DNA of 64,000 nucleotides from Hyphomonadaceae bacterium ML37 (GTDB lineage: Bacteria; Pseudomonadota; Alphaproteobacteria; Caulobacterales; Maricaulaceae). A program made the translations under genes and the position numbers. Shown here piece after piece: positions 12,102-63,810 of the stretch. Location: positions 2,604,396 to 2,668,395 of the forward strand of contig CP091241.1 in the NCBI GenBank assembly GCA_027627685.1. Reading direction: 5' to 3'. The notes under the pieces were generated by a model that ran no database searches, was not told the DNA's origin, and saw only the letters and a program-made list of their open reading frames with translations. Each line of letters starts with the position of its first letter. Position 1 is the first letter of the stretch.

Positions 12102-12929
12102 ATGAGCACCAGCGTCACCGTCCGCCGAACGGCCAGAGACGGGGAAATATCCAGCTTCTTCGCCGACCTCGCTGCCGGTTTGCGCATGACCGATCTCTGG
12201 CGCACCTTTGCCTGGGACGAGATGCAGCAGCGCTACCGGCGCAGCATACTGGGCGTGGCCTGGATCGTTGTCTCCTACGCCATGTTTGTTGGCGGCGTAT
12301 CGATCATCTTTTCCGGGTTTTCCGACCGGGGCGGGGAATTCTTCGTCATTCACGTCGCGATCGGCTTTGCGGCGTTCAGTTTCATCGTGGGCAATGTGAC
12401 AGACGGATGTACCGTGTTCACAGGGGCCAGGGTCTGGATCCAGTCCATCGCCTTGCCGCACTCGATCCATATCTATCGCAGCATCTGCCGGTCGATCTTC
12501 ACCTTCGCCCTGCAATTCATTGTGGCCGCAGTCATCATCATCGGCGCCGGCTGGCAGCCTACCCTGGTCAATCTCTGGGTCCTGCCCGCGATCGCCGTCT
12601 TCCTGCTGAATGCGGTCGCGATCCAGTACCTGATGGGGCTGATCAGCGCGCGTTACCGCGACGTCACCCATCTGGTCGGCTCGATCACGCGCCTCCTGCT
12701 GTTCGTCACGCCGATCTTGTGGATACGGTCCGATCTCGATACCGGGCGCAGCAATTTCGCCGATTTCAATCCGGTCGCCCATTATGTGGAGGTGTTCCGC
12801 GCGCCGCTCATGGGTCTTGAGCCACGTCCGCTGAGCTGGATCGTGGTCGGGGTCCTGACCGTGGTGGTGTGGATCGCGGCGGCGATCGTCGCGTCGCGCA
12901 TGCGCCGCCGCCTGGCCTACTGGCTGTAG
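12102..12929 (+). CDS. ABC-2 type polysaccharide exporter, membrane subunit
   Basis: The 275-residue permease has a cytoplasmic N-terminal segment with DLWRTFAWDEMQQRYRRSILG (the amphipathic region before helix 1 in Wzm/KpsM/TagG permeases), then six hydrophobic segments, and ends RRRLAYWL. It would export lipid-linked polysaccharide across the inner membrane with the ATPase encoded 12 bp downstream. The start at 12102 (MSTSVTVRR) removes a Pro/Arg-rich unconserved leader of 73 codons. Neighbours on the opposite strand are candidate glycan-modifying enzymes. Confidence 0.87.
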   Translation: MSTSVTVRRTARDGEISSFFADLAAGLRMTDLWRTFAWDEMQQRYRRSILGVAWIVVSYAMFVGGVSIIFSGFSDRGGEFFVIHVAIGFAAFSFIVGNVTDGCTVFTGARVWIQSIALPHSIHIYRSICRSIFTFALQFIVAAVIIIGAGWQPTLVNLWVLPAIAVFLLNAVAIQYLMGLISARYRDVTHLVGSITRLLLFVTPILWIRSDLDTGRSNFADFNPVAHYVEVFRAPLMGLEPRPLSWIVVGVLTVVVWIAAAIVASRMRRRLAYWL

Positions 12930-12941
12930 GAGCGCGCTGCC

Positions 12942-14006
12942 GTGTCCCATATCCGCGTCGAGAATCTTTGCGTGAACTACCCGCTGTACGGCCGCAGCCG
13001 CGCCGCAGCGGGCGTGCACGAGATTGATCCGGACCTCGATCGCATGGTACGCGACCGCAAGAACCGGGTGGTCGGCGTGCGTGCGTTGCAGGGCGTCACC
13101 TTTGAGGCCGGGTCCGGCGAGCGCATCGCGCTGATCGGCGAGAACGGTTCGGGCAAGACTACGCTTTTACAGGTGCTTGCAGGCATTTACTCGCCCGACG
13201 CGGGCGAGGTGGAGATCGAGGGCCAGACCACCGCCCTGGTCAATATCAATCTGGGCATGAACGCCGAAGCCAGTGGCCATCGCAATATTACCCTGCGCGG
13301 CCTGGCGGCCGGACGCACCCGCGCCGAGATCGAGGAGCGCCGCGCGGAAATCGCCGCCTTCTCCGAGCTGGGCGATTTCCTGGCTCTGCCGGTGGAGACC
13401 TATTCGGCCGGCATGCGCATGCGGCTGAGCTTCGCCATCGCCACAGCGTTCGAACCCGACGTGTTGATTCTCGACGAGTGGCTGTCGGCCGGCGACGCCG
13501 CCTTCCGCAAGAAGGCAACCGAGCGCATGCAGGCCTTCGTGGACAAGGCCGGGATCCTGGTGCTCGCCTCGCACAGCCCGTCGCTTCTGATCGACACCTG
13601 CAAGCGCGCCCTGTGGCTGGATGCCGGCCGCGTGCGCGGCGATGGCGATGTGAGGGACATCCTCCAAGCCTATGGCGAAGAGATGGAGCGCCGCCAGGTG
13701 GGACGCGATGAGCGGGCGCAAGTCCAGATCGCCGCCGCGGTGGAAGCCCGCGAAGCCGGCCGCCTCAAGGCGGAAGCCCGCAAGGGCCGGCGCCGGCCCG
13801 CCGCGGATGCGCCGGCAGACGCCGGGGCGGTTTCAATCCCCGAAACGGCCCCGGACGGCGCCGCCGCCACAGGCGCAACGAACGGCGCCGCGACCCACGA
13901 GGCGTCGCCCCCTGCCCAGGTCCCCGCGCTGGCTCACGCCGAACCCGACCCCCACAACCCCATCGCCCGCCTGGTGCGGCGCGCTGCGCGGGCGTTTGGC
14001 TGGTAG
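12942..14006 (+). CDS. ABC-type polysaccharide exporter, ATPase subunit
   Basis: The 354-residue partner of the upstream permease. Walker A GENGSGKT is at about 66-73, the signature YSAGMRMRLSF near 155 (noncanonical but typical of the KpsT/Wzt/TagH branch), and Walker B LILDEWLSAGD near 173. After the NBD (to about residue 250) there is a basic, Ala/Pro-rich tail ending RLVRRAARAFGW. It is not a recognisable Wzt carbohydrate-binding domain, so export is probably not gated by a reducing- or nonreducing-end cap recognised by this subunit. Start is GTG, with TAGGAG (permease stop) as Shine-Dalgarno. Confidence 0.88.
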   Translation: MSHIRVENLCVNYPLYGRSRAAAGVHEIDPDLDRMVRDRKNRVVGVRALQGVTFEAGSGERIALIGENGSGKTTLLQVLAGIYSPDAGEVEIEGQTTALVNINLGMNAEASGHRNITLRGLAAGRTRAEIEERRAEIAAFSELGDFLALPVETYSAGMRMRLSFAIATAFEPDVLILDEWLSAGDAAFRKKATERMQAFVDKAGILVLASHSPSLLIDTCKRALWLDAGRVRGDGDVRDILQAYGEEMERRQVGRDERAQVQIAAAVEAREAGRLKAEARKGRRRPAADAPADAGAVSIPETAPDGAAATGATNGAATHEASPPAQVPALAHAEPDPHNPIARLVRRAARAFGW

Positions 14007-49581: not shown

Positions 49582-49599
49582 TGTCCAATTTGCTAGACA
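49582..49599 (+). promoter_or_regulatory. PpsR/CrtJ-type box upstream of bchI
   Basis: The sequence TGTCCAATTTGCTAGACA is a perfect TGT-N12-ACA palindrome (TGTC-N10-GACA), the consensus operator of the redox/light repressor PpsR (CrtJ) of photosynthesis genes. It lies 30-48 bp upstream of the bchI start. Confidence 0.8.
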
Positions 49600-49629: not shown

Positions 49630-50637
49630 ATGACCCTATCCTTTCCCTTCCCCGCCATTGTCGGGCAGGAGGAGATGAAGCAAGCTCTGCTGATCGCTTG
49701 TGTCGAACCCAGAGTGGGCGGGGTGTTGATCTTCGGCGACCGCGGCACCGCCAAGTCCACCGCCGTGCGCGCGCTGGCCGGCCTGCTGCCCGGGATCGAG
49801 ACCTATGAGCACTGCCCCTATAATTCGGCGCCGGGCTCCGATCCCATTGGCGGAGACGCCAAGTCGCGCGGCTCGGTGGTGCGCAAGCCGACCCCTGTGG
49901 TCGATCTGCCGCTGGGCGTGACCGAGGACCGGGTGGTTGGGGCGCTGGATATCGAAAAAGCGCTGCGTAAGGGCGAGAAGGCGTTCGAGCCCGGCCTCTT
50001 GGCGCGGGCCAATCGCGGATTTCTCTATATCGACGAGGTCAATCTGCTGGAGGACCATATCGTCGATCTGCTGCTGGACGTGGCGGCCACCGGCGAGAAC
50101 GTGGTGGAGCGCGACGGGCTGAGCGTGCGCCATCCGGCCAAATTCGTGCTTGTCGGCAGCGGCAACCCGGAAGAAGGCGAGCTGCGCCCGCAATTGCTCG
50201 ACCGGTTCGGCCTGTCGGTGGAAGTCGCCACGCCGCGCGATATCGAAGACCGCATCGAAGTGGTGCGCCGCCGCGATGCGTTCGAGCGCGATCCTCTGGC
50301 CTTCTGTGCGACATGGACTGAAGCCGGCGACGCGCTGCGAGAACGCGTTGCCGCCGCTCAGAAGCTGGTCGTGAAAATCGGCACGCCGGACGCCGTGCTG
50401 CGGCGCGCCTCGGAGATTTGCATGGCGCTGGGCGCGGACGGGCTGCGCGGCGAGCTGACCCTGATCCGGGCCGCGCGCGCGCAGGCCGCGCTGGAGGGGT
50501 CGGAAGAGATTTCGCTGGAGCATTTGCGCGCCGTGGCGCCCGCCGCCCTGCGCCATCGCCTGCGCCGTGATCCGCTGGATGAGGCCGGCTCGTCCGTCCG
50601 CATCGAGCGCGGCCTTGCCGAGGCGTTCGCCGCGTGA
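49630..50637 (+). CDS. bchI: Magnesium chelatase ATPase subunit BchI
   Basis: BchI is the AAA+ motor of magnesium chelatase, which inserts Mg into protoporphyrin IX, the branch point to bacteriochlorophyll. The 335-residue protein has Walker A GDRGTAKST (36-44), Walker B FLYIDE (131-136), and the I-subunit sequence GSGNPEEGELRPQLLDRFGL with the sensor and arginine-finger region. It opens the operon bchI-bchD-bchO-DUF3422; its stop overlaps the GTG start of bchD. A PpsR-type box precedes it. A cobalt chelatase relative would lack the adjacent bchD/bchO and photosynthetic context. Confidence 0.95.
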   Translation: MTLSFPFPAIVGQEEMKQALLIACVEPRVGGVLIFGDRGTAKSTAVRALAGLLPGIETYEHCPYNSAPGSDPIGGDAKSRGSVVRKPTPVVDLPLGVTEDRVVGALDIEKALRKGEKAFEPGLLARANRGFLYIDEVNLLEDHIVDLLLDVAATGENVVERDGLSVRHPAKFVLVGSGNPEEGELRPQLLDRFGLSVEVATPRDIEDRIEVVRRRDAFERDPLAFCATWTEAGDALRERVAAAQKLVVKIGTPDAVLRRASEICMALGADGLRGELTLIRAARAQAALEGSEEISLEHLRAVAPAALRHRLRRDPLDEAGSSVRIERGLAEAFAA

Positions 50638-52391
50638 GCGAGACCGCCCATATGCGCGATGGCTGGGGCGAAGCGCGCCTGGCCGCCGCGCTGCTGGCGG
50701 TGGATCCGGGTCTCGGCGGCGCTGTGCTGAGAGCCCGCGCCGGACCGGCGCGGGACGCCTGGCTGGAGACGCTGCGCGATCTGGTCAACGAGACCGCGCC
50801 CTGGCGGCGCATCCCGGCGGGCGTGGGTGATGAGGCGCTGCTGGGCGGCGTCGATCTGGCCGCCACCCTGAAAGCCGGACACGCCGTGCATCGCGCAGGC
50901 CTGCTGGACGAAATCCAAAACGGCGTTGGCGTGCTGGCCATGGCCGAGCGCGCCGAGACCGGGCTGGCGGCCCGTCTGGCCCTGGCGCTCGACAGCCATC
51001 CGGCGCCCATGATCATCGCCCTTGATGAAAGCGCCGACCCGGATGAGAGCGCGCCCGGCGCGCTTCTCGAGCGCCTGGCCTTCCATCTCGATCTGTCCGG
51101 CGTGTCCCTGAGCGATCTCAATACCAGCGCGTTTGATCTGGACCGCGAGGCCGTGGCCATGGCGCGGGTGCGCCTGCCCCACGTGCTCAATGGCGATGTG
51201 GACCGCGCCCTGACCCAGACCGCCGCGGCGCTGGGGATCAACTCCCTGCGCCCGCCCCTTCTGGCCCTGCGCGCCGCGCGCGCCGCAGCGGCGCTCGACG
51301 GTCTGGACGAGATTGGCGAGGAACAGGCGGCGCTGGCTGCAAGGCTGGTGCTGGGGCCGCGCGCCTTGCATCTGCCCCACGAAGACCAGGCGGACGACCA
51401 GCCGCAGGACAACGAACCCGACGCGCCGCCCCAGGACGACGAGGCGCAGAACGACAATACCGAGCCGGATGATCAAACCGACGACCAACCCGATAACGCC
51501 CAGACCCCGGATGAATTGACCGAAATCACCACTGAAGCCGCCAAGGCCGCGATCCCACCCGGCTTGCTGGCGCGCCTCGAAGCCGGCGTGTCGACCAGCC
51601 GGGCCAGCAGCGCAGGCCAGTCGGGCGCCACGCGCAAGAGCGGCCAGCGCGGACGGCCCGCCGGGACGCGCCGCGGCGATCCGGGCGAAGGGCGCAAGCT
51701 GGATGTCCTGGCGACCTTGCGCGCCGCAGCTCCCTGGGGGCGCGTGCGGCGGCGCGGCTGGGACCGGCTGAAATCCGGCCCGGCGCTGGAGGTCCGCCGC
51801 GAAGACTTCCGCATCAAGCATTTCAAGCAGAAAGCCGAGACGCTCACCGTCTTCGTCGTGGACGCCTCGGGCTCTCTGGCGCTCAACCGCCTGTCCGAAG
51901 CCAAGGGCGCGGTGGAGCTGATGCTGGCCGAATCCTATGTGCGGCGTGATCAAGTGGCGCTCATCGCGTTTCGCGGCAGCACCGCCGAAACGCTGCTCCC
52001 GCCCACCCGTTCGCTCACCCGCGCCAAGAAATGCCTGTCCGCCCTGCCCGGCGGCGGCGGCACGCCGCTGGCCACCGCCATTGAGGCCGCTGAAGCGCTC
52101 GCCCACGCCGCCGCGCGGCAGGGACGCACCGTGACGCTGGTTTTCCTCACCGACGGGGCCGCCAATGTCACGCGCGCCGGAACCGGCGGACGGGATGTGG
52201 CCCAGGCTGAAGCGCATGATGCCGCACGGCGCCTGCGCGCGGCGGGCCATGCCACCATCATCGTCGATGTGTCCAAGCGGGGCGCAGATACAGCCAAATC
52301 GGTCGCCCAGAATATGGCCGCGCGCTATGTGCGCCTGCCCGCGGGCAATCCCGGCGCGCTGGTTGATATCGCCCGGACGGCCGCCGCATGA
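50634..52391 (+). CDS. bchD: Magnesium chelatase subunit BchD
   Basis: The 585-residue BchD couples BchI to the catalytic BchH. It has a degenerate AAA+ half (Walker motifs eroded), an acidic Asp/Pro/Gln linker (about 245-300, DDQPQDNEPDAPPQDD and on), and a C-terminal von Willebrand A domain with the MIDAS motif DASGS at about 410-414. Start is GTG, four bases before the bchI stop ends (GTGA). The TGA of bchD overlaps the bchO ATG. bchH is not in the window. Confidence 0.95.
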   Translation: MSETAHMRDGWGEARLAAALLAVDPGLGGAVLRARAGPARDAWLETLRDLVNETAPWRRIPAGVGDEALLGGVDLAATLKAGHAVHRAGLLDEIQNGVGVLAMAERAETGLAARLALALDSHPAPMIIALDESADPDESAPGALLERLAFHLDLSGVSLSDLNTSAFDLDREAVAMARVRLPHVLNGDVDRALTQTAAALGINSLRPPLLALRAARAAAALDGLDEIGEEQAALAARLVLGPRALHLPHEDQADDQPQDNEPDAPPQDDEAQNDNTEPDDQTDDQPDNAQTPDELTEITTEAAKAAIPPGLLARLEAGVSTSRASSAGQSGATRKSGQRGRPAGTRRGDPGEGRKLDVLATLRAAAPWGRVRRRGWDRLKSGPALEVRREDFRIKHFKQKAETLTVFVVDASGSLALNRLSEAKGAVELMLAESYVRRDQVALIAFRGSTAETLLPPTRSLTRAKKCLSALPGGGGTPLATAIEAAEALAHAAARQGRTVTLVFLTDGAANVTRAGTGGRDVAQAEAHDAARRLRAAGHATIIVDVSKRGADTAKSVAQNMAARYVRLPAGNPGALVDIARTAAA

Positions 52392-53290
52392 CCCTCGCGC
52401 GCATCCCCGATAACTGGCCACACCGCGCCTCCAGCGAGATGGTCGCGGCCGGCGGGGTCAGCTGGCATGTCCAGCGCGTCGGCAAGGGACCGGTCCTCCT
52501 GCTCATCCACGGCACCGGGGCCTCGACCCACTCTTTCGCGCATCTGGCCCGCGACCTCAGCGGCGAGTTCGAGATCATCATGGCCGATCTGCCCGGCCAC
52601 GGCTTCTCCGGACAGATGGAGGCGCCTGAACTGCCGCTGGTGGCCCAGGCGCTGGGCGCGATGATGGCGCGCCTCGACACCGCGCCCGCCCTCGTGGCGG
52701 GCCATTCTGCCGGGGCGGCCATCGCCCTGCGCATGGCGCTGGACGGGGTGATCAAGCCCAGAGCGCTCATTGGCCTCGCCCCGGCGCTGCAGCCCTATGG
52801 CGGCGCGGCAGACGGCATCGCCTCGAAACTTGCCCGGATGGCTTTGCTCAACCCGCTCACCCCGCGCCTGTTCTCCATGCGCGCCGACAGCGCGAGCGTC
52901 GCCCGCCTGATCGCCAAGACCGGCTCCCGCCTCGATGAGGCAGGGGTGGCGCTGTACCAGCAATTGCTCAAACAGCCCGGCCATGTGGCCGGGGCCCTGC
53001 GCCTGATGGCGCACTGGAAGCTGCGTCCCCTGCTGGCTGATCTGTGCCGGGTGACCACGCCGACGACCGTTGTGCTGGGTGAGAACGACCGGGCCACCCC
53101 GGCTGCCGAAGCCTGGGCAGCGGCCCGCCGCATTCCGGGCTGCCAGGAGGTCCGGCTGCCGGGCCTCGGCCATCTCGCCCATGAAGAAGACCCCGGCCGC
53201 ACGGCCGGTATCATACGCCTCGCTGCACAGGCCGCAGGGCTCGACACAAGCGCCAGCGCGCAAACGCGCCGCATGGCCGGAGGAAGCTGA
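52388..53290 (+). CDS. bchO: BchO, alpha/beta hydrolase of the Mg-chelatase operon
   Basis: The 300-residue alpha/beta hydrolase has the oxyanion region LLIHGTGAS, the nucleophile elbow GHSAG and the late Asp (ENDRATP) and His (LGHLAHEED). BchO is a conserved partner of bchID in purple bacteria; its exact reaction is not established. It overlaps bchD (ATGA) and the following DUF3422 gene (TGATG). Order and overlap show a single translationally coupled unit. Confidence 0.9.
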   Translation: MTLARIPDNWPHRASSEMVAAGGVSWHVQRVGKGPVLLLIHGTGASTHSFAHLARDLSGEFEIIMADLPGHGFSGQMEAPELPLVAQALGAMMARLDTAPALVAGHSAGAAIALRMALDGVIKPRALIGLAPALQPYGGAADGIASKLARMALLNPLTPRLFSMRADSASVARLIAKTGSRLDEAGVALYQQLLKQPGHVAGALRLMAHWKLRPLLADLCRVTTPTTVVLGENDRATPAAEAWAAARRIPGCQEVRLPGLGHLAHEEDPGRTAGIIRLAAQAAGLDTSASAQTRRMAGGS

Positions 53291-54594
53291 TGCCTGCCCT
53301 CACCTTGCCTGCCAACCATCCGCGCCGCGTCGATCTCAGCGAGGAGGTTCATGCCCGCCCGCCCCAGCCGCTCACCGCGCCACTCAGCGCCTCCTATCTG
53401 GTGCTCTATACCGGCCCGGAAGAACAGGCCGCCGACCGCGCCGCCATCGCCGCCCTGGCCGCGCGCTTCAGCGCCGCCGAGCCGTCTGAAGGCGCCACGC
53501 ACTACAACGCTCATCTCGGCCCCGTGCGCGTGATCTGGGAGCGCCATACCGAGTTTACCCGCTACACCTTCATCCGCCAGAAGGGCGATGAACGCGCCCC
53601 CTTCGACAATCCGCCCATCGCCGAAGCGCCCGCCGACTGGCTCGCCAGCCTGCCCGGTCAGGTGATTTTCGCCGCCCATGTGCTGATGCTGGACACCGGC
53701 GAGGACGACTCCTCCCTGGATGAGACCGCCCGCCGCCTGTTCGGCGACGCCGAGCTGGTGGGCTCGCGCATTGCGTCCGGCGGCGCGGTGGCGCTGACCA
53801 GTTTCCGCAGCCATGGCGACGGCTTTAACCGCTATCTGATCCGCAATCGCAATCTGTCGGCGATCCAGGCCGGGCGCCTGATGCGCAGCCTTCTGGAGAT
53901 GGACACCTACCGGATGATGGCGCTGCTCGGCCTCCCGGCGGCGCGCTATCTGGGGCGGGTCATGACCGACCGCGAGCAGGAGCTGGCGGGCATCACCCAC
54001 GAGATGGCCGATGGAATCCATTCCGACGAAAGCGGCCTGCTGGACCGGATCACCCGCCTGCAGTCGGACATCGAGCGCCGCCACTCCCAGCACCGCTACC
54101 GGTTCGGCGCGTCGGCGGCCTATTACGGCATCGTCCAGGCCCGCATCGAAGAGCTGCGCGAAGAGCGCCTGGAAGGCCTGCAGACTTTTGCCGAGTTCGT
54201 CGAGCGCCGCCTGGCGCCGGCCATGAGCACGGTGGAGGCGGTCTCTGACCGGCTGGAATCCATGTCGGAGCACCTGGCGCGGGTCACACAGCTCTTGTCC
54301 ACGCGCGTCGCCCTGACCCAGCAGCAGGACAGCCGCAAGCTTCTGGCCGCCATGGCGCGGCGCGCCAAGATCCAGCTGCGCCTCCAGCGTACGGTGGAAG
54401 GGCTCTCGATCGCGGCCATCACCTATTATCTCGTCGGCCTGGTCGCCTACTTCGCCAAGGGCACAGAGGTGCTCGGCCTGCCGCTGGACGCCGCGATCAT
54501 CACTGCCGCCGCCGTTCCGCTGGTCGCGTTGGCGCTGTTCATCGGCCTGCGCCGCGTGCGCGGACGGCTCGGCAAGTCGGCGAAGGAGGATTGA
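53290..54594 (+). CDS. DUF3422 membrane protein coupled to bchIDO
   Basis: The 434-residue protein matches the DUF3422 family: HARPPQPLTAP near the start, HTEFTRYTFIR, and two C-terminal membrane helices (about 360-385 and 395-420) after a long helical region. Family function is unknown. Its ATG overlaps the bchO stop, so it is co-expressed with magnesium chelatase here. DUF3422 is widespread in proteobacteria without photosynthesis, so the role may be general (envelope stress or transport). The association with bch genes is notable. Confidence 0.82.
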   Translation: MPALTLPANHPRRVDLSEEVHARPPQPLTAPLSASYLVLYTGPEEQAADRAAIAALAARFSAAEPSEGATHYNAHLGPVRVIWERHTEFTRYTFIRQKGDERAPFDNPPIAEAPADWLASLPGQVIFAAHVLMLDTGEDDSSLDETARRLFGDAELVGSRIASGGAVALTSFRSHGDGFNRYLIRNRNLSAIQAGRLMRSLLEMDTYRMMALLGLPAARYLGRVMTDREQELAGITHEMADGIHSDESGLLDRITRLQSDIERRHSQHRYRFGASAAYYGIVQARIEELREERLEGLQTFAEFVERRLAPAMSTVEAVSDRLESMSEHLARVTQLLSTRVALTQQQDSRKLLAAMARRAKIQLRLQRTVEGLSIAAITYYLVGLVAYFAKGTEVLGLPLDAAIITAAAVPLVALALFIGLRRVRGRLGKSAKED

Positions 54595-54608: not shown

Positions 54609-55370
54609 TCAATGTCCGTACGTCGCCAGCCTTGACGCCTTGCCGACCCTGAACCGCCGACTGACCTGGCGACGGTAGTACAGGATCAGGCCGAGCCCGA
54701 TCAGCAAAGGCACAGCCCAAAGCACGGGCGCAAGCGCCAGTTCGGGAACCAACCGGACCGCACCAAAGGCAAAGAAGGCCGTATAGACCGATATCCCCGT
54801 TCCAACGATAGCCTTTATGTGCTCCAGCAACCACTCGACCGGTCCGGGGCTCCGCCTCAGAAGGAACCAGAGATTGGTGCCCACAGTGGCGAATCCCACA
54901 AGCGACATCCCGATCATCATCGGTTGACCCAGATTGAAGCCCTGCAGGGCGCATTGGGCTGACGCGACAAGCAAGACCAGCTGCAGCATGCCGTTGACCC
55001 AGTCGCGATTGCGCGTGTGATTATGCTTGTTGACGGCAGCCCGCCAGCCGTACCAGGCCAGATTGATGGTCAGGATGGACAGGTAAAGCATCATCCAGCC
55101 AAATATCCCCCGCACCAGCGCCGGATCGGAGAACTCTGCATGCTCGGCCAGGTGGGGGTGGGTCTCCATGGGCTGCCACAAGGTCAGGCTTGACATGATG
55201 GCCGCGGCCAGCGCGGTTATGAGCATGGCGATGGCGAAGAGTCGGCCTGACAGGCGATGAAGCTTGCCGCCTTTCCGGGCGGCGACGGGCACCCAGAAAA
55301 CGATCAGTCCTGGCGCACCCGTGATGATGTGAAGGACGATGAAGACAACAAAGATGTCATGTGCAGACAT
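54609..55370 (-). CDS. DUF2306-like multi-helix membrane protein
   Basis: The 253-residue protein has about seven hydrophobic segments. The HDIFVVFIVLHIITGAPGLIVFW start and conserved His residues (HDIF, LHII, LHRLSGRLF, HPHLAEH) recall DUF2306/YoaI-like or cytochrome-b561-like membrane proteins, which may bind heme; this is inference. ATG at 55370 is used; the frame stays open to 55595 over the P450 start region. It is divergent from the P450 gene with only 52 bp between, so the two may share a promoter region. Confidence 0.68.
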   Translation of the reverse strand: MSAHDIFVVFIVLHIITGAPGLIVFWVPVAARKGGKLHRLSGRLFAIAMLITALAAAIMSSLTLWQPMETHPHLAEHAEFSDPALVRGIFGWMMLYLSILTINLAWYGWRAAVNKHNHTRNRDWVNGMLQLVLLVASAQCALQGFNLGQPMMIGMSLVGFATVGTNLWFLLRRSPGPVEWLLEHIKAIVGTGISVYTAFFAFGAVRLVPELALAPVLWAVPLLIGLGLILYYRRQVSRRFRVGKASRLATYGH

Positions 55371-55422
55371 GGATTTAGCACCAACCAGTTGAAGTGTTCG
55401 TATCAGGACGGAGGCGACAGGC

Positions 55423-56808
55423 ATGCCAGCAGGAGATTTCAGGCCGCCGCGGCCATCGCGGCTTCCGGCAATCCTGTCGCTGATGCGCACTGTATGGCAC
55501 GGGGACGGCGACCTGCTCAGCCTGCTTCCCGGCGAGGCGTTCTCCATGAAGGCCGGCGAGCTCGGTTTTTCGCGCCGCTCCATCAAGCTTTTCAATGATC
55601 CTGACCTGGTGCGTCAGATTCTCAATGAAACGGACGGGCTTTATCCCAAGAGCGACCTGATGGTGGGGGCGCTGGAGCCGCTCATCGGCGATTCCATTTT
55701 CGTTTCGGACGGTCCCAAATGGCGGCGCCAGCGCGCCATGATCGATCCGGCCTTCTCCAAGATGCGCCTCAACCTGGCTTTCGGCGCCATGCAGGCGGCA
55801 GCGGCAGATTGCTGCGAACGCCTCGGTGCCGCCGCTGAGGCGGGCGCAACACTCTCCCTCGATCAGATTATGAGCGAGCTCACCGCAGACATCATATGCC
55901 GTACGGTTTTCTCCATCTCGCTCTGCTCCCAGATCTCGCGGGACGTGTTTGAAGATTTTTCGATCTTCGAACGGGGCGTCGCTCAGGTGAAGATATGGCG
56001 GCTTATCGTCGACCCGGCCTGGACCCGGGCGGAGCAGGACCCGGATGTGCTGGCGGCCTGCTCCCGGATTCGCAAGCACCTGGGCACCTTGATCGACACC
56101 CATTTGGAAGCGGGAGACGGCACCTATGATGACATCGCCAGCGAGGTGATCGCCGCGCGCGACAGCGACACCGGCCAACCCTTTGACCGAGAGGAGCTGA
56201 TCGACCAGCTGGGCGTCTTCTTCCTGGCCGGACATGAAACCACGGCCAGCGCGCTCACCTGGGCTTTTTACCTGCTGGCCATCCAGCCCGATATACTGGC
56301 TCGGTTGCGCGCCGAGGTCAGCGTCGTGTCCGACGGGGGGGGCATCAGCTTCGAAGCCGTGCGCAGATTGCTTTTCACGCGCAGCGTGTTCCGTGAAACC
56401 CTTCGCTTGTACCCGCCGATCACCTTCATGCCGCGCGTGGCCATGCGGGCGGGACGAATAGGCCCCTACGCAGTTCGAAAAGGGGCGCTGCTGATGATTT
56501 CGCCCTGGACGCTGCAGCGCCACCGGCAATACTGGTCCCGGCCCGATCATTTCGATCCGGATCGCTTCATGCCTGGCCGGGAGGCCGAGATAAACCCCCA
56601 CGCCTATATCCCCTTCGGGTCCGGTCCGCACACCTGCGTCGGAGCCGGCTTTGCCACGCTGGAAGCGGTACTGATTCTGGCCACCCTGGCGCAGCAGTTT
56701 GATTTTGACGTCCTGGGGCGCGACCAGGTCCGCCCCTCCGCCCGCCTTACGACGCGCCCCGCTGAGCAGATCCATGTGCGGGTGAGGCGTCACAACGCAG
56801 GCGCCTGA
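55423..56808 (+). CDS. Cytochrome P450 in the carotenoid cluster
   Basis: The 461-residue heme monooxygenase has all P450 landmarks: C-helix WRRQR (100-104), I-helix AGHETT (269-274), ExxR with Glu325 and Arg328 (RETLRLYPP), and the heme-binding FGSGPHTCVG with Cys405. The GHETTASALTW I-helix is the form seen in CYP97/CYP175-like carotenoid ring hydroxylases and CYP4-type enzymes. It has no N-terminal membrane anchor. It stands between bch and crt genes and converges on the ATP-grasp gene (19-bp overlap of stops). Oxidation of a carotenoid or of another lipid is the likely role; the substrate is not readable. Confidence 0.85.
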   Translation: MPAGDFRPPRPSRLPAILSLMRTVWHGDGDLLSLLPGEAFSMKAGELGFSRRSIKLFNDPDLVRQILNETDGLYPKSDLMVGALEPLIGDSIFVSDGPKWRRQRAMIDPAFSKMRLNLAFGAMQAAAADCCERLGAAAEAGATLSLDQIMSELTADIICRTVFSISLCSQISRDVFEDFSIFERGVAQVKIWRLIVDPAWTRAEQDPDVLAACSRIRKHLGTLIDTHLEAGDGTYDDIASEVIAARDSDTGQPFDREELIDQLGVFFLAGHETTASALTWAFYLLAIQPDILARLRAEVSVVSDGGGISFEAVRRLLFTRSVFRETLRLYPPITFMPRVAMRAGRIGPYAVRKGALLMISPWTLQRHRQYWSRPDHFDPDRFMPGREAEINPHAYIPFGSGPHTCVGAGFATLEAVLILATLAQQFDFDVLGRDQVRPSARLTTRPAEQIHVRVRRHNAGA

Positions 56809-57974
56809 TGTGCCGGCGCGCCGGACTGCAGCAGGACTGGCCCCGCAGGATACCACTGGATGTCCAGCGTCGCTGCGTCGCCGAAACTGCGCCCCTGGAA
56901 GATCACCTGCTTGAGGACGGGCCATGACATGGGCGTCATCAGCGGAAAAACCCAAGGATCGGCCGCTGTCCAGAGCACATCGCGGGCGCTGGCCATGGTC
57001 TTCAACATGCGCCAGAACGCGCCGGGCCTGAGCGCCTGGCTGTAGGCCCGGGTCAGCGCGGTATGACTTTCCTGGTACCGCGGCTGGGCTTTCAGGCGCA
57101 CCTGATGGCCGATGGGCTGTCCCATGATCACCGCCGCGAGGTCATCATGGCGCATGAAATGGAGACCGCTGGTCAGGCGTGGGTTGCACTCGAGGGGCCA
57201 GGGCGTTCCATCCGCGTCAACAATGAAATCAAAAGCGACAAACCCTGTGTACCGGGTCTGCTCGGCAAACCTTGAAACCCATTCATCAATGGCCGCAAGC
57301 GCCACTTGCTCAAAGCACACCGCCACGGTTCCGGAGAAAATGAGACCACGATAATTGACATGCGCCAGCACCTCGCCGTTGCGGCAGAATGATTGTGTGC
57401 TGTGCTCACGCCCCCTGATCCGGCGCTGCACCACCCAGTCTGCAGACCTGAGCTGATCGGGAAGGGCCTGGCCGGCGCGCAGAAAGTGCAATCCCGACCC
57501 CGCGCATCCAAATCGCGCCTTCACGACAGTTTCGCCACACTCCGCCAGCGCCGCCGCCCCGGCGCTGTCGCCCAGGCAGGTCGGCGGCGCCCGCAAGCCG
57601 GCCCGAGCAACGGTTTCCATGAACTCGAATTTGTCATGAAGCGTGAGGATGCGTTCGAACGGTTCGCACAGGAGCTCGGTCGTCTCGGGCAGACGGCCGG
57701 CCAGAGCGGCCACATGCATGACTTCCTCGGAGACGGGAATGACCAGATCCACCGCTTCCTCGCGGATGATCCGGCACAGAGCGTCCAGATAGGTTTCAGG
57801 GTCTGACGCCGGTGCCGGCGTCGTCACGCAGCGCGCGACAGCTCTGGACGGCTTTGAAAGATGCAAGGCGAAGGGGTCCGCAATGATCACCCGGTTGCCG
57901 GCCCCGTGCAGGCATCGCGCCAATTCCAACCCTTTCGGCAACCGCCCAAGGGTCAACAGAATGGTTTTGCCCAT
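56790..57974 (-). CDS. ATP-grasp carboxylate-amine ligase-like protein
   Basis: The 394-residue protein has a Rossmann-like N-terminal preATP-grasp domain (LLTLGRLPKGLELARCLHGAG) and an ATP-grasp domain (VVKARFGCAGSGLHFLR for the nucleotide loop, PLECNPRLTSGLHF for the metal-binding Glu-x-Asn). This resembles CarB-like ligases that activate a carboxylate as acyl phosphate and join it to an amine or other nucleophile. Start is ATG at 57974; an in-frame GTG two codons upstream (57980) is possible. It is divergent from crtI and convergent with the P450 gene. I know no such ligase in the classical purple-bacterial carotenoid pathway. Confidence 0.75.
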   Translation of the reverse strand: MGKTILLTLGRLPKGLELARCLHGAGNRVIIADPFALHLSKPSRAVARCVTTPAPASDPETYLDALCRIIREEAVDLVIPVSEEVMHVAALAGRLPETTELLCEPFERILTLHDKFEFMETVARAGLRAPPTCLGDSAGAAALAECGETVVKARFGCAGSGLHFLRAGQALPDQLRSADWVVQRRIRGREHSTQSFCRNGEVLAHVNYRGLIFSGTVAVCFEQVALAAIDEWVSRFAEQTRYTGFVAFDFIVDADGTPWPLECNPRLTSGLHFMRHDDLAAVIMGQPIGHQVRLKAQPRYQESHTALTRAYSQALRPGAFWRMLKTMASARDVLWTAADPWVFPLMTPMSWPVLKQVIFQGRSFGDAATLDIQWYPAGPVLLQSGAPAHQAPAL

Positions 57975-58179
57975 GTCCACCGCCGATTCGTCCGAGCCGA
58001 CTGGCCCAGCCTCAAAATTGAAACAAATTAGTCAACGCCAGGCAATATGAATTCAACCGGTGAAGGCCTCGCAGCGGCTGCACCTCACTGCACACGGTCG
58101 GGCTGGCAAGGCTGCGCATGTCAATATAGATACTAGAGTGACTGCGCCGAAGCTAAACGATGCGCGGATGGAGGCTACC
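57975..58179 (+). promoter_or_regulatory. Divergent promoter region between ATP-grasp and crtI
   Basis: Contains an AT-rich block (58013-58053) and, near crtI, the block at 58119-58142 with a TGTC half-site that lacks the ACA partner at N12. No full PpsR-type box was found, unlike upstream of bchI and crtE. GGAGG at 58170-58174 precedes the chosen crtI start. Confidence 0.4.
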
Positions 58180-59703
58180 ATGCTCGAACGCACCGATGAC
58201 ACTCCCGCCCAGCAGCCTGGAAAGCCCCATGCGATCGTAATCGGAGCGGGCTTTGGCGGGTTGGCGGCGGCCGTCCGGCTCGGCGCGCGCGGGTATCGCG
58301 TCACGGTGCTTGAGAAGCTGGATGCGCCCGGTGGCAGGGCCTATGTCTTCAGGGACAAAGGCTACGTGTTCGATGCCGGGCCCACCATCATTACCGCCCC
58401 GTTCCTGCTGGAGGAATTATGGCAGCTGGCCGGCCGCACGTTCCAGGACGAGATCGATCTGCGCGAGATCGACCCCTTCTACGCCATCAGGTTTGACGAC
58501 GGCAGCGTCATTCACTGCCCGCGCGATGCCGAAGCCATGCGCGCCGAGGTCATGCGGGTGGCCCCGGACGATCTCGCGGGCTATGAGCGCTTCTTGCGCA
58601 AGAGCAAGGATATCTTCGAAGTCGGCTTCAAGGAGTTGGCGCATGCGCCCTTCCACACGCTCTCATCCATGGCGCGTGCGACACCAGACCTCATCCGCCT
58701 GTCCTCCTATCGGACCGTGCACCAGCTTGTTTCCAAATATGTCAAGAATCCGAAGCTCCAAGTTGCTCTGAGCTTTCACCCCCTGCTCGTAGGCGGAAAC
58801 CCGTTTGCCGCCAGTTCATTCTATTGTCTGATCTCCCATCTCGAGCGTCAGTGGGGCGTTCACTTCGTCATGGGCGGGACGGGCAGGCTTGTGGAGGGTC
58901 TGGTTGACCTGATCAGGGGCCAGGGCGGACAGGTGCTCTGCAACAGCGAAGTGCGTCAGATCAAGGTGGACAACGGCCGGGTCACCGGCGTGGAACTGGC
59001 CAGCGGCCGCCATATCCCGTCGCAGGTGATCGTGTCCAATGCCGAAGTCGGACACACCTACAAACATCTCATGTCCGGCGTCCGGCGCAAGCGATGGACG
59101 GACCGGAAAGTTGATACGGCCCGTTACTCCATGAGCCTGTTCCTGTGGTATTTCGGAACAAGAAAGCTGTACCCGGACGTGGATCATCACACAATTCTGC
59201 TGGGCCCGCGTTATCGGGGGCTGCTCAGCGATATCTTCGAGAAGAAGCACCTGGCGGAGGATTTCAGCCTGTACCTTCACCGCCCGACAGCCACAGACCC
59301 CTCCATGGCGCCACCGGGCTGCGAGGCGTTCTATGTGCTGTCGCCGGTTCCCAATCTGACCGGCGATACCGACTGGGCAAAGATGGCCGAGCCCTACCGC
59401 CAGGCGGTGGAGCAGCGGCTTGAAGAGACCTTGCTGCCCGGCCTGAAGGGCTCAGTTGAGGTCTCGCGGGTCATGACCCCCCTGGATTTCCGCGACCGCC
59501 TGAACTCGGTTCACGGTGCCGCCTTCGGGCTGGAGCCCCTTCTCACCCAGTCAGCCTGGTTCCGGGCCCACAACAAGAGCGAAGAGGTCGAAGGGCTTTA
59601 CTTGGTCGGCGCTGGCACGCACCCCGGAGCAGGCGTTCCGGGCGTTCTGTCGTCTGCACGCGTACTTGACGCCATCGTGCCGGATGCCGCCGCCTATGGC
59701 TGA
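58180..59703 (+). CDS. crtI: Phytoene desaturase CrtI
   Basis: CrtI introduces double bonds into phytoene, giving neurosporene or lycopene. The 507-residue FAD protein has the dinucleotide site VIGAGFGGLAAAVRL (about 20-34), EKLDAPGGRA, FDAGPTIIT, and the C-terminal FAD/substrate signature YLVGAGTHPGAGVPGVLSSARV typical of CrtI-type carotenoid desaturases. The ATG at 58180 has GGAGG at 5 nt; an ATG at 58168 lies upstream in frame. It overlaps crtB by 8 bp. Confidence 0.95.
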   Translation: MLERTDDTPAQQPGKPHAIVIGAGFGGLAAAVRLGARGYRVTVLEKLDAPGGRAYVFRDKGYVFDAGPTIITAPFLLEELWQLAGRTFQDEIDLREIDPFYAIRFDDGSVIHCPRDAEAMRAEVMRVAPDDLAGYERFLRKSKDIFEVGFKELAHAPFHTLSSMARATPDLIRLSSYRTVHQLVSKYVKNPKLQVALSFHPLLVGGNPFAASSFYCLISHLERQWGVHFVMGGTGRLVEGLVDLIRGQGGQVLCNSEVRQIKVDNGRVTGVELASGRHIPSQVIVSNAEVGHTYKHLMSGVRRKRWTDRKVDTARYSMSLFLWYFGTRKLYPDVDHHTILLGPRYRGLLSDIFEKKHLAEDFSLYLHRPTATDPSMAPPGCEAFYVLSPVPNLTGDTDWAKMAEPYRQAVEQRLEETLLPGLKGSVEVSRVMTPLDFRDRLNSVHGAAFGLEPLLTQSAWFRAHNKSEEVEGLYLVGAGTHPGAGVPGVLSSARVLDAIVPDAAAYG

Positions 59704-60727
59704 GCCGTTTGCCAGCCCGCAGGATATTCAGGCCTGTCGCGCAGCGATCAAGGGAGGTTCAAGGAGCTTCTTTGCCGCTTCGTTTCTGTTGCCCAGCGAG
59801 GCGCGGGACAGGGCCTTTGCCCTGTACGGGTTCTGCCGATGGGCGGACGATACAGTCGATCAGGGCGAAGACGCCGCAGCGGCCTGTAGCCTCGTCACCC
59901 GGCACCTGGAGATGATTTACGCCGGCCAACCGGCCGACAACCCAATCGACCGGGCCTTCAGTGATGTGGTGCGCCAATGCGACATACCACAAGCCTTGCC
60001 CGACGCCCTCATCGAGGGTTTTGCCTGGGATGCGACCGGCCGCCAGTATGAGACGCTGTCGGACGTGCGCGCCTATGGCGCCCGGGTGGCGAGCTCGGTC
60101 GGAGCGATGATGTCGCTGGTCATGGGCGCCCGCAGCGCCGAGGCCCTGGCGCGCGCTTGCGATCTGGGCGTGGCCATGCAGCTGACCAATATCGCACGGG
60201 ATGTGGGCGAGGACGCCCGGGCGGGCCGCCTGTACCTGCCGCGCGCCTGGTTTGCCGAAGCGGGCCGCGACCCTGATGCATGGTTGGCCGAGCCATGCTT
60301 TGACGAGCACATCGCCGCCTGCGTCGAGCGGTTGCTAACTGAAGCTGACCGCCTGTACCAACGCGCGCGGCCGGGCATTGCCTTCCTCCCGTCCAGGTGC
60401 CGGCCCGCCATTCACGCAGCGGCCCGGATCTATCGGGAGATTGGCGTGGAGGCCGGGCGCAACCGGTTCGATACAGTCAATCGCCGCGCGACCACGTCGA
60501 CCTTGCGCAAGCTGGGTCTGGCGGGAGCCGCAGTGCTTGATGCCGTGTTCGCCTCCAGCGCCGCAGCCGAAGCGCCGCTGGCCGAAACGCGTTTTCTGGT
60601 CGATGCCGCCCCGAACGTGCCAGCCCCAGACACGCCGCCGCCCTGGTGGCGGGTGGATGAGGAATGGGGGCGGGTGATCGGAATACTGCATGAAGTTAAG
60701 ATGAGAGACAGGGCGGCCGGCGGCTGA
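59696..60727 (+). CDS. crtB: Phytoene synthase CrtB
   Basis: CrtB condenses two GGPP into phytoene. The 343-residue protein has both Mg-binding Asp-rich motifs, DDTVD (51-55) and NIARDVGED, with RLYLP following, as in squalene/phytoene synthases. It starts inside the crtI end and is translationally coupled to it. No strong Shine-Dalgarno is present. A coding alternative 12 bp upstream (ATG at 59684) is possible. Confidence 0.93.
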   Translation: MAEPFASPQDIQACRAAIKGGSRSFFAASFLLPSEARDRAFALYGFCRWADDTVDQGEDAAAACSLVTRHLEMIYAGQPADNPIDRAFSDVVRQCDIPQALPDALIEGFAWDATGRQYETLSDVRAYGARVASSVGAMMSLVMGARSAEALARACDLGVAMQLTNIARDVGEDARAGRLYLPRAWFAEAGRDPDAWLAEPCFDEHIAACVERLLTEADRLYQRARPGIAFLPSRCRPAIHAAARIYREIGVEAGRNRFDTVNRRATTSTLRKLGLAGAAVLDAVFASSAAAEAPLAETRFLVDAAPNVPAPDTPPPWWRVDEEWGRVIGILHEVKMRDRAAGG

Positions 60728-61381: not shown

Positions 61382-62578
61382 TCAGCGCCAGTACGCCCGC
61401 GGCATTCGGAAGGGTAGCATCATTTTCACCACCTGTGACGAGAACCGCGTCAGGTCGAGGCTTTCATGCATCGATGTCCGCCGCGCGCCCAGGAGCTCCG
61501 TCTCGATCAACGAGCGCGAGTAGAATGGCGTATCTTCCAGCGTTTCGATCACCCGCGCCGGCCCGTCCGAGCGCGCGGCGCGATCCACCCGCCAGCCGGT
61601 CTTTGGCAAAGCCTGTACCCGTGGCGCATCGAATGATTCGGCCCGGCCGGCCGGATCGATGCGCAGGGCAAGCGACTGCCCGCCGCCATCCGCCCAGACC
61701 GAATCATACAGGATCGCCGCGCCGCCTTCCGTCGCCGTGCGCGCCCAGTTCCAGGACCGGAACCCCGCTTCCAGCGGTTCGGCGCCGGCATTCATGTCCA
61801 CATAGCCATCGCCGGAAAAACGTAAAGCCGGCGCGTCAAACTCAGCTTCCACCCGCGCACGGGGCCAGACCGGGCGCCAGACATGGCGGCCTTCCGCGTC
61901 CAGCGTAAAGGTCTCGCTTTGCTCCACATCGGGCCGGATCACGACCCGCCCGCGCACGGCCTTGGGCAAAGGCGCACCATGCTCGGCGATGTCATAGATC
62001 AGCGCCCCGTCTTCAAAGCGCACCTGGCTGGGGCCCAGCGCCAGGCTGTCGGCGCTCGCCTGCACCGCGCCGCGCCGCCGCTCGGTCATCGCCCAGCGCC
62101 GTACGCCGGGGCCGTAGAGGCAAACATTAAGCGCGCAATGATTGAGCGGATCACCCCGTCCCGACCAAGCGTAATAGGGTGAGAAGACACTGCCCAGAAG
62201 CGCGATCAGGACGAGGGCGAACCGTCCGTCCTCGCTGACCGCGTCGGCATAGACCCAGCGATATCCGCCGGGTGGAAGCGCCGCATCGAAGCCAAATCGG
62301 CCAAGATCGAGCGTGCCGCGATCCGCCCCGACAGCATCGCCGTGGGCACGCCCGGCCCCGGATGCACGCCGCCCCCCGCCAGGTACAGACCCGGCAGCCG
62401 GGTGCGCGCGCCCGGCCTCTGGAACGCCGCCTGCCAGCCGTGCAGGGCTCTGCCGTATATGGCCCCGCCGGACCCGGGACAGAGCCTGGCGAAACCGTCC
62501 GGCGCTGTTGTGGCGATGCTTTCGAGGTCGAGGTCGAGACCGCGCGCCTGCAACCGGTTGAGTGTCAGATCGAGCCAT
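61382..62578 (-). CDS. crtC: Carotenoid 1,2-hydratase CrtC (start unresolved)
   Basis: CrtC adds water to the psi end of acyclic carotenoids. The recognisable protein begins near 62300 (FDAALPPGGYRWVYADAVSEDGR), then LGSVFSPYYAW, NHCALNVCLYG and RWAMTER, all typical. It would be about 305 residues from there. No ATG, GTG or TTG exists in frame between about 62300 and the ATG at 62578; that ATG would add some 90 residues read out of phase through crtD. A non-canonical start near 62300, an overlapping long start, or a base error are the options. The end is the region SSQVVKMMLPFRMPRAYWR. Confidence 0.8.
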   Translation of the reverse strand: MARSDTQPVAGARSRPRPRKHRHNSAGRFRQALSRVRRGHIRQSPARLAGGVPEAGRAHPAAGSVPGGGRRASGAGRAHGDAVGADRGTLDLGRFGFDAALPPGGYRWVYADAVSEDGRFALVLIALLGSVFSPYYAWSGRGDPLNHCALNVCLYGPGVRRWAMTERRRGAVQASADSLALGPSQVRFEDGALIYDIAEHGAPLPKAVRGRVVIRPDVEQSETFTLDAEGRHVWRPVWPRARVEAEFDAPALRFSGDGYVDMNAGAEPLEAGFRSWNWARTATEGGAAILYDSVWADGGGQSLALRIDPAGRAESFDAPRVQALPKTGWRVDRAARSDGPARVIETLEDTPFYSRSLIETELLGARRTSMHESLDLTRFSSQVVKMMLPFRMPRAYWR

Positions 62579-63774
62579 GCATCCGTCTCCCGGGCCGTAT
62601 ATGTGCGCGCATCGCCATCCGCGGGCGCATTGATCAGAATCAGAAACCGTTCGGGGCCGTCAGGCGGCGGCCCTGCGCCGCGATCTTGCGCGCAAACATA
62701 GACCGTCGGGTCATCAGGAATGCGGCCTTCAGCAAACAAGGCGTCAAACTCGGCGGCATAATTGCTTGAAAAAACAACATTGTGCCGATCCAGCGCGAAG
62801 CCGTGGGGCCGCCCTGTGGCCGTCCATACCAGCGCCGAGAGACTGCGCGGCAGCCGCGCCGCGCCCAGAGCCGGGGCCGCTGCCTGGCCAAGCAGGCCCT
62901 GACGCAGGGCGTCGGGATCAGCATTGGACAGAACCGCGCGCGCAGCCAGAACCTCACCAGATCCCAACCTGACCCCGCAGGCCCGCCCGCCCTCGACAAT
63001 GACCTGCTCGACGGCCTCGCCATAGCGGATCTCACATCCCAGCCGAGCCGCAAAGGCGGCCATGCCGTGCGCCAGCCGGCTCATGCCGCCTTTGACGTAC
63101 CAGACGCCGCGCTGCTCCAGCTCGGCGATCATCATGAGCGTGGCCGGCGCCTGATAGGGCGACGCGCCGCAATAGGTGGCGTAGCGGCCAAACAGCTGGC
63201 GCAGCCGGGGATCCGGAAAGTAATCTCCCAACGCATCCCAGAGGCTGGAGAATGGCCTCAGCGTCAGCGCCCCACGCGGATTATGCCGCAGCATGCGGCC
63301 GGCCAGGCTGACCGGCGACGACTGGGGCATTTGCATGAAGTTCCTGTCCAGAGCCTCATAGAGCCTGCAACCATCCGACAGGAAACGGCGGAACAATCCG
63401 GCTTGCCGCGCCCCGCAGAAACGGCCCACCTCATCAATGGAACGCTCGGGATCTGCAAACAGGTCGAACGTGTCCTCTGCATCCCAGGCATGGCGGGCCA
63501 GGCGCTCGGCCGGGATGAGGCCGACATAGTCTTCAAATGTGGCCCCGGCCTCCTCGAACAGGCGGTCAAAGGCGCTTCGAAGCGTCATCACGGTCGGACC
63601 GGCGTCAATGTCCTGCCCGCCTACATGGAGCGCGCGCATCTTCCCGCCGGGGACGTCAGCCCGCTCGACAAGGGTCACCGGCAAGCCGCGCGACGCGAGG
63701 TCAATCGCGGCCGCCAGCCCGCCGACGCCGGCACCGATAATGACCGCGCCGTGCTCAGACCGCGTCCGCATCAT
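62206..63774 (-). CDS. crtD: Carotenoid 3,4-desaturase CrtD
   Basis: CrtD desaturates the 3,4 bond of hydroxylated acyclic carotenoids (methoxyneurosporene dehydrogenase). The 522-residue FAD enzyme is CrtI-like: VIIGAGVGGLAAAIDLAS at the N terminus, ADVPGGKMRAL, DAGPTVMTL, and LYLAGGGVHPGPGVPTAMLSGRIAA near the end. It is preceded (63793-63810) by a PpsR-type box shared with crtE, and its 3' part overlaps crtC. Start is ATG at 63774 or 63771. CrtI-like paralogues are told apart by context: crtD next to crtC. Confidence 0.93.
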   Translation of the reverse strand: MMRTRSEHGAVIIGAGVGGLAAAIDLASRGLPVTLVERADVPGGKMRALHVGGQDIDAGPTVMTLRSAFDRLFEEAGATFEDYVGLIPAERLARHAWDAEDTFDLFADPERSIDEVGRFCGARQAGLFRRFLSDGCRLYEALDRNFMQMPQSSPVSLAGRMLRHNPRGALTLRPFSSLWDALGDYFPDPRLRQLFGRYATYCGASPYQAPATLMMIAELEQRGVWYVKGGMSRLAHGMAAFAARLGCEIRYGEAVEQVIVEGGRACGVRLGSGEVLAARAVLSNADPDALRQGLLGQAAAPALGAARLPRSLSALVWTATGRPHGFALDRHNVVFSSNYAAEFDALFAEGRIPDDPTVYVCAQDRGAGPPPDGPERFLILINAPADGDARTYTARETDAWLDLTLNRLQARGLDLDLESIATTAPDGFARLCPGSGGAIYGRALHGWQAAFQRPGARTRLPGLYLAGGGVHPGPGVPTAMLSGRIAARSILADLASMRRFHPADIAGSMPTRSARTDGSPSS

Positions 63775-63792: not shown

Positions 63793-63810
63793 TGTCCAAT
63801 CATCATAACA
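63793..63810. promoter_or_regulatory. PpsR/CrtJ-type box between crtD and crtE
   Basis: The sequence TGTCCAATCATCATAACA fits TGT-N12-ACA, with three bases of the first half conserved as TGTC. It lies 18-36 bp from the crtD start and 50-67 bp from the crtE start, between divergent genes. Confidence 0.75.

Follow-up and report, generated by a model that had tools for sequence, protein, structure and literature searches.

A conserved P450, DUF2306-like and ATP-grasp gene unit tied to carotenoid genes in aerobic anoxygenic phototrophs

We analysed a 64,000-nucleotide stretch of the genome of Hyphomonadaceae bacterium ML37 (assembly GCA_027627685.1, contig CP091241.1, positions 2,604,396 to 2,668,395 of the forward strand), here called the window, in which a cytochrome P450 gene and a gene for an ATP-grasp ligase-like protein lie inside a photosynthesis gene cluster. 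A sequence-only reading of this DNA had placed the two genes convergently between bchIDO and crtIB, and the open reading frames (ORFs), Pfam matches and neighbouring genes confirm this arrangement, with a 19-base overlap between the two. To the left of the pair are bchI, bchD, bchO, a DUF3422 gene and a DUF2306-like gene; to the right are crtI, crtB, tspO, crtC and crtD. The cluster runs on past the window through bchC, pufL and pufM, and the further genes there carry provisional labels only. The DUF2306-like gene, divergent from the P450 gene, is the third member of what we call the module:

55423-56808, + strand: cytochrome P450, the module core, 461 amino acids (Pfam p450, E 1e-69; orthologues in relatives and named loci)
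56790-57974, - strand: ATP-grasp ligase-like protein (Pfam ATP-grasp_3, E 6e-9; confident ATP-grasp fold; ORF open to a GTG at 57980)
54609-55370, - strand: DUF2306-like membrane protein, 253 amino acids, candidate CrtA substitute, adjacent to the P450 gene across loci
55371-55422, no strand: 52-base-pair (bp) spacer separating the P450 gene from the divergent DUF2306-like gene, a putative promoter; no PpsR-like site here

The P450 scores 235.8 bits against Pfam p450 (gathering score 22.8), which places it in the family, and its translation shows the heme loop FGSGPHTCVGAG (C405), the ExxR motif (E325, R328) and AGHETT (A269-T273). The ATP-grasp protein scores 36.7 bits against ATP-grasp_3 (gathering score 23.2); its NCBIfam PRK06849 match falls under the cut-off. 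Its structure model is a confident ATP-grasp fold that matches PurK, L-amino acid ligase and PylC, and the ECNPR stretch, K117 and K154 are invariant in an alignment of 53 sequences, so that fold and conserved Mg/ATP residues together mark it as an ATP-grasp protein. Most orthologues align from MGKT, which supports a start at the ATG at 57974. The third protein reaches 21.1 bits against Pfam DUF2306 (PF10067), below the gathering score of 31.6, and we therefore name it DUF2306-like only. Its model is all-helical, with a predicted local distance difference test (pLDDT) score of 90, and His14, His38 and His184 are invariant across 60 sequences. Despite this confident model we found no PDB fold match at E 0.001, and a sequence search gave no match either.

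The three genes travel together. Among 41 related genomes, P450 orthologues (at least 54% identity) occur in 10, other P450s at no more than 36% identity being present in many more. The same 10 genomes hold the orthologues of the ATP-grasp gene (at least 40% identity) and of the DUF2306-like gene (at least 422 bits; one further genome has a 37-bit match), and all 10 have a bchI orthologue. The genes are adjacent in these relatives, and their position varies: they lie in the interval between the DUF3422 gene and crtI, as in the window, upstream of bchI, or in the interval between crtD/crtI and crtB. In G003 the module is on a separate contig. A class-wide sample of 210 genomes, 15 of them with pufM, holds P450 orthologues (at least 594 bits; the next match has 390) in four genomes, all pufM-positive. 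There, the DUF2306-like gene was found in G000, in G167 and, more distantly, in G184, and the ATP-grasp orthologue in G000 alone, with a 139-bit relative in G143.

A scan of GTDB contigs for relatives of the P450, of which the best 80 of 380 were kept as named loci, extends this picture across alphaproteobacteria (Roseibium, Hyphomonas, Anderseniella, Parvularcula, Roseococcus and others) and gammaproteobacteria (Luminiphilus, Chromatocurvus, HTCC2080, NOR5-3 and others). In 77 of the 80 loci the P450 gene has the DUF2306-like gene as its immediate neighbour; the other three (L108, L152, L155) are cut off by a contig end next to the P450. Sixty-six loci carry the ATP-grasp gene, at most 400 bp from the P450 gene except in L109. 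The ATP-grasp gene points the same way as the P450 gene in 14 of these 66 loci and in three genomes of genus g14, and the convergence seen in the window is thus not general. Another crt, bch or puf gene is visible in 69 of the 80 loci. We looked for pufM in 19 genomes picked for a short contig or for few or no such genes in view, a set covering all but two (L152, L155) of the 11 loci without visible crt, bch or puf genes; it was present in 16, and the three misses (L106, L110, L115) are all metagenome-assembled genomes (MAGs). Comparison thus shows a single gene unit that goes with phototrophs and with crt genes, crtD most of all. Restriction to this strain, which the sequence-only reading had named as grounds for giving up its proposal, is not what the neighbourhoods show: the unit is widespread with crt, bch and puf genes in many alpha- and gammaproteobacterial phototrophs.

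The tie to crtD is close. Where enough sequence is available, the next gene downstream of the DUF2306-like gene on the same strand is crtD in 54 of 69 loci; crtI takes this place in six and bchI in one, and eight have no searched gene within 900 bp. Among 41 measured pairs of the DUF2306-like gene and crtD, 20 overlap by four bases and nine by one. A separate crtD paralogue beside the module is unsupported, the adjacent copy passing the CrtD cut-off in all five loci tested.

A second tie is to crtA, whose product, the spheroidene monooxygenase, makes the C-2 keto group. In all six P450 orthologues found without a DUF2306-like gene, which come from two families only, crtA (NF045923) lies directly upstream of the P450 gene. 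Genome-wide searches, covering 53 genomes for crtA and 47 for the DUF2306-like gene, found crtA in those six and in none of 32 genomes that carry both the DUF2306-like gene and the P450, the window genome included; conversely, none of the six crtA-paired genomes has the DUF2306-like gene. crtA also occurs without a module-type P450 (G076). By this comparison, members of the P450 clade have either CrtA or the DUF2306-like protein as partner, and in no searched genome both. A quick tree unites the photosynthesis-linked P450s in one clade (Shimodaira-Hasegawa-like approximate likelihood ratio test, SH-aLRT, 100). Within it the crtA-paired sequences diverge first and do not make up a single group, and the P450s paired with the DUF2306-like protein are nested inside (SH-aLRT 99). 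Twelve plasmid records match the P450 at E 1e-60, with identities of 33-41%, and thus hold no close orthologue.

Pairwise identities of neighbouring genes point the same way. The module-less relative G013 is closest to the window in bchI (95%), bchC (96%), bchX (94%) and pufM (99%). Its crtI, crtB and crtD, however, are 87/81, 73/71 and 71/73% identical to those of the module-less G009/G011, against 76, 66 and 67% to the window. The window crtI, crtB and crtD, in turn, are closer to those of the module-bearing G002/G010 (80/80, 71/71 and 73/74%) than to those of G009/G011 (75/75, 63/67 and 65/69%). For bchI the order is the opposite (82/80% to G002/G010, 88/85% to G009/G011), as it is for pufM (80% to G002, 94/92% to G009/G011). 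Since the identities of the crt trio track the module and those of bchI and pufM do not, crtI, crtB and crtD appear to have been swapped along with it. tspO and crtF fall outside this pattern, and the puhA of G013 also departs from the rest of its cluster.

As an observation in its own right, the photosynthesis cluster of G013 (L069-L070) is a mosaic, in which most bch and puf genes are 90-99% identical to those of the window and crtI, crtB, crtD and puhA 65-76%.

The flanking genes and sites in the window are:

49582-49599, no strand: PpsR-like TGT-N12-ACA site upstream of bchI (motif scan)
49630-50637, + strand: bchI (orthologue searches, position and cross-genome blastp)
50634-52391, + strand: bchD (named by position and cross-genome blastp)
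52388-53290, + strand: bchO (NCBIfam TIGR03056, above its cut-off)
53290-54594, + strand: DUF3422 protein, a neighbour outside the module (Pfam DUF3422, E 2e-152)
58168-59703, + strand: crtI (TIGR02734, above its cut-off; an earlier start is open at 58060)
59684-60727, + strand: crtB (NF045921, E 3e-117, under its cut-off)
61382-62209, - strand: crtC, start approximate (NF045922, E 4e-80, under its cut-off)
62206-63774, - strand: crtD, separated from the module here, whereas most other lineages have the two side by side (NF045637, above its cut-off)
63793-63810, no strand: PpsR-like TGT-N12-ACA site between crtD and the next gene (motif scan)

A DUF3422 gene, here next to bchO, also occurs in seven of the 80 named loci and in the photosynthesis clusters of several relatives. 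The bchI frame in L067 (G011, C1:751446-754406) is open for about 990 codons rather than the usual 340 or so, either a fusion or an artefact of start choice. A cluster of alpha/beta-hydrolase genes is represented in 26 loci (e.g. L127, 6745-7647), mostly between bchI and crtD in Halieaceae. Proteobacterial photosynthesis clusters also turned up in records titled Klebsiella pneumoniae, Candidatus Sulfopaludibacter or Acidobacteria bacterium (L156; L095, L098, L100), which are probably mislabelled or mixed MAGs.

The link of the module to carotenoids is well supported by these gene neighbourhoods, and the module probably makes an oxidised carotenoid. We lean, with slight confidence, towards a dedicated carotenoid-tailoring module of aerobic anoxygenic phototrophs, composed of the P450, the DUF2306-like protein and, in most lineages, the ATP-grasp enzyme, and acting on the carotenoid end group. 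The sequence-only reading had also proposed tailoring, of a carotenoid or a quinone-like isoprenoid; tailoring of a carotenoid now leads, and the DUF2306-like gene and the connection to crtA and crtD had been overlooked. The chemistry that we infer would run as follows. The DUF2306-like protein would oxygenate the psi end group prepared by CrtC and CrtD, in the place of CrtA; we suggest this step because of the gene exchange with crtA, the coupling to crtD and the weak family link to DUF2306, of which a fungal member is required for terminal epoxidation (PMC12895699, in part). The P450 might then oxidise the same end group further, possibly to a carboxylate, a step proposed because the P450 is present in both arrangements, with CrtA and with the DUF2306-like protein. 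Going by the general chemistry of ATP-grasp ligases, to which the fold and profile matches point, the ATP-grasp enzyme could activate this carboxylate as an acyl phosphate and join it to a nucleophile, probably an amine. Where the ATP-grasp gene is lacking, the pathway would end with the oxidised carotenoid. Probably the product is distinct from the bulk antenna pigment, a polar carotenoid made in small amounts or only under certain conditions.

In its most specific form, the proposal would make the DUF2306-like protein a second class of end-group oxygenase, unrelated to CrtA and replacing it in the spirilloxanthin lineage of aerobic phototrophs, which together with the P450 yields an acid that the ATP-grasp enzyme turns into an amide-linked carotenoid conjugate. 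We put this forward tentatively and think it unlikely to hold in every part; we know of no natural carotenoid of this kind. Carotenoic acids are found in Craurococcus and Paracraurococcus, a point that the literature passages we found do not confirm.

Several observations weigh against carotenoid tailoring by a dedicated module. The module is dispensable: four of the 14 relatives with bchI (G009, G011, G013, G028) lack all three genes. G184 has pufM and a distant DUF2306-like protein and no P450 orthologue. Family assignment of the membrane protein is weak, with only 30 of 60 members reaching DUF2306 at E 0.01 and the window protein below the gathering score. The ATP-grasp gene is missing from 14 of the 80 named loci, from G167 and from the crtA-paired G135 and G144. 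The similarity of the P450 to CYP97 enzymes, which the sequence-only reading had noted, is real and not specific. Searched against the PDB, the P450 profile ranks CYP97A3 highest (218 bits; the next molecule has 184), and in single-sequence searches with the window P450, the crtA-paired L160 and a control, L162, a related P450 whose genome has no pufM match, 7wzl came first and CYP97A3 second for all three. Because the control shares these two molecules, CYP97 likeness alone is no evidence for a carotenoid substrate, and we dropped it as such. In the excerpted parts of PMC3679898, the absorption spectra of strains of L. syltensis and C. halotolerans, two species that carry the module (L107, L109), are ascribed to bacteriochlorophyll a and spirilloxanthin only; a minor product, or one whose chromophore is the same, would go unseen in such spectra.

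Regulation adds a further difficulty. PpsR-like sites (TGT-N12-ACA) lie between the DUF2306-like and P450 genes in two of 77 loci (2.1 expected), and within 250 bp upstream of the P450 gene in four of 73 (3.8 expected) and of the DUF2306-like gene in one of 60 (3.1 expected). As a positive control, the same motif precedes bchC in 25 of 25 cases, crtE in 16 of 22, bchI in 23 of 39 and crtI in 30 of 50. We rejected PpsR control of the P450/DUF2306 promoter, its sites being no commoner than chance, and the module may consequently be expressed apart from the photosystem. Upstream of the ATP-grasp gene, sites occur in 16 of 60 loci against 3.1 expected, an excess probably due to neighbouring crtI or crtB promoters.

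Where the ATP-grasp gene is missing from a named locus or from G167, we found none elsewhere in the genome at E 1e-20 (14 genomes, Halieaceae and kin, and G167; two controls were positive). Twelve of the 14 loci without it (L108, L113, L114, L118, L119, L121, L122, L127, L131, L133, L140, L146) carry a gene of a single cluster, whose L131 member matches Pfam FA_hydroxylase. This gene may swap the ligation step for another oxidation there.

Alternatively, the module could act on carotenoids with the DUF2306-like protein assisting the P450 or CrtD in the membrane, as a redox partner, scaffold or isomerase and not as an oxygenase, in which case the alternation with CrtA would reflect two P450 substrates. 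No dedicated redox partner was recognised beside the P450 in the named loci, and the invariant histidines could bind heme. In the excerpted text of PMC12895699, a fungal DUF2306 protein, PraC, is required for terminal epoxidation of pramanicin-A, and its authors leave open whether it acts as an enzyme or as a scaffold. We nevertheless consider such an accessory role unlikely, if credible, for the crtA-paired P450s manage without the DUF2306-like protein, and the gene for that protein is coupled to crtD and not to the P450.

It is also conceivable, and distinctly unlikely in our judgement, that the product lies outside the antenna altogether: carotenoid cleavage to apocarotenoid acids, followed by conjugation, could serve signalling, turnover or a polar dark pigment. 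The seemingly unchanged bulk pigments of the two carrier species (PMC3679898, in part) and the lack of PpsR-like sites in the P450/DUF2306 promoter are consistent with this. So are the polar yellow-orange dark pigments of C. litoralis KT71, unidentified and with peaks at 400-420 nm (PMC2654016, section 8). The KT71 authors, however, think the pigment unlikely to be a carotenoid (same section), and we take this pigment as a lead only. Alternation with CrtA, moreover, points to end-group chemistry.

That the unit sits in photosynthesis clusters that also hold bch and puf genes would fit another isoprenoid of the photosynthetic membrane, such as a bacteriochlorophyll side chain or a quinone, as the substrate, the crt neighbours being mere cluster mates. 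We regard this as improbable given the coupling to crtD, the exchange with crtA, the sorting of crtI, crtB and crtD (and not of bchI and pufM) with the module, and the crtY gene beside the ATP-grasp gene in L091 and L104. In L104 this lycopene cyclase gene, just beyond the ATP-grasp gene, spans 12738-13922 and matches TIGR01789 above the cut-off; that of L091 belongs to the same cluster, and both genomes are pufM-positive. Finally, the suggestion of the sequence-only reading that the genes might be mere passengers, inserted by chance between bchO and crtI, finds some encouragement in the close relative G013, where the DUF3422 gene is followed directly by crtI, and is very unlikely for a unit conserved at different positions with crt, bch and puf genes in many families of two classes.

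That alpha- and gammaproteobacterial aerobic phototrophs share a conserved module next to crtD implies a carotenoid product that pigment work on the carriers has left unnamed. The module would also allow DUF2306 function to be probed outside fungi, and the alternation of CrtA and the DUF2306-like protein lends itself to a concrete genetic swap experiment. Among the open-access papers listed by our searches we recognised no description of the module. The word P450 is absent from PMC2889829, PMC2654016, PMC3176799, PMC3679898, PMC8781829, PMC12654162 and PMC13029026, and the word ATP-grasp from PMC2889829 and PMC2654016. In the excerpted sections of a 2023 review (PMC10604819), purple-bacterial carotenoid pathways are described as neglected in recent years, and P450s appear only in the ketolase section, where CrtA is stated not to be one.

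The window shares crtI, crtB, crtC and crtD with the spirilloxanthin and spheroidene pathways of purple bacteria, crtE and crtF being provisional. The acyclic end group is where CrtC, CrtD and CrtA work in those pathways, CrtA as its oxygenase (PMC10604819, in part, and general knowledge). Where the DUF2306-like gene is absent, CrtA occupies the spot directly upstream of the P450; it is missing from the 32 searched carriers of that gene, and the DUF2306-like protein may do its job there. CYP97A3 (LUT5), to which the P450 profile is most similar in the PDB, is a plant carotenoid ring hydroxylase, whereas the module P450 stands in an acyclic carotenoid context. PraC resembles the DUF2306-like protein as a membrane protein with a DUF2306 assignment that acts on a hydrophobic unsaturated chain (PMC12895699, in part). 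The window protein differs in being bacterial, encoded in a unit that lies beside crtD, and below the DUF2306 gathering score. The ATP-grasp protein has its fold in common with the carboxylate-activating enzymes PurK, L-amino acid ligase BL00235 (3vot) and PylC, with template modelling (TM) scores of about 0.5-0.6 and identities of 15-18%. Taken singly, carotenoid P450s, CrtA and ATP-grasp ligases belong to known kinds; what is new, to the extent of our searches, is to find them combined with a DUF2306-like protein next to crtD.

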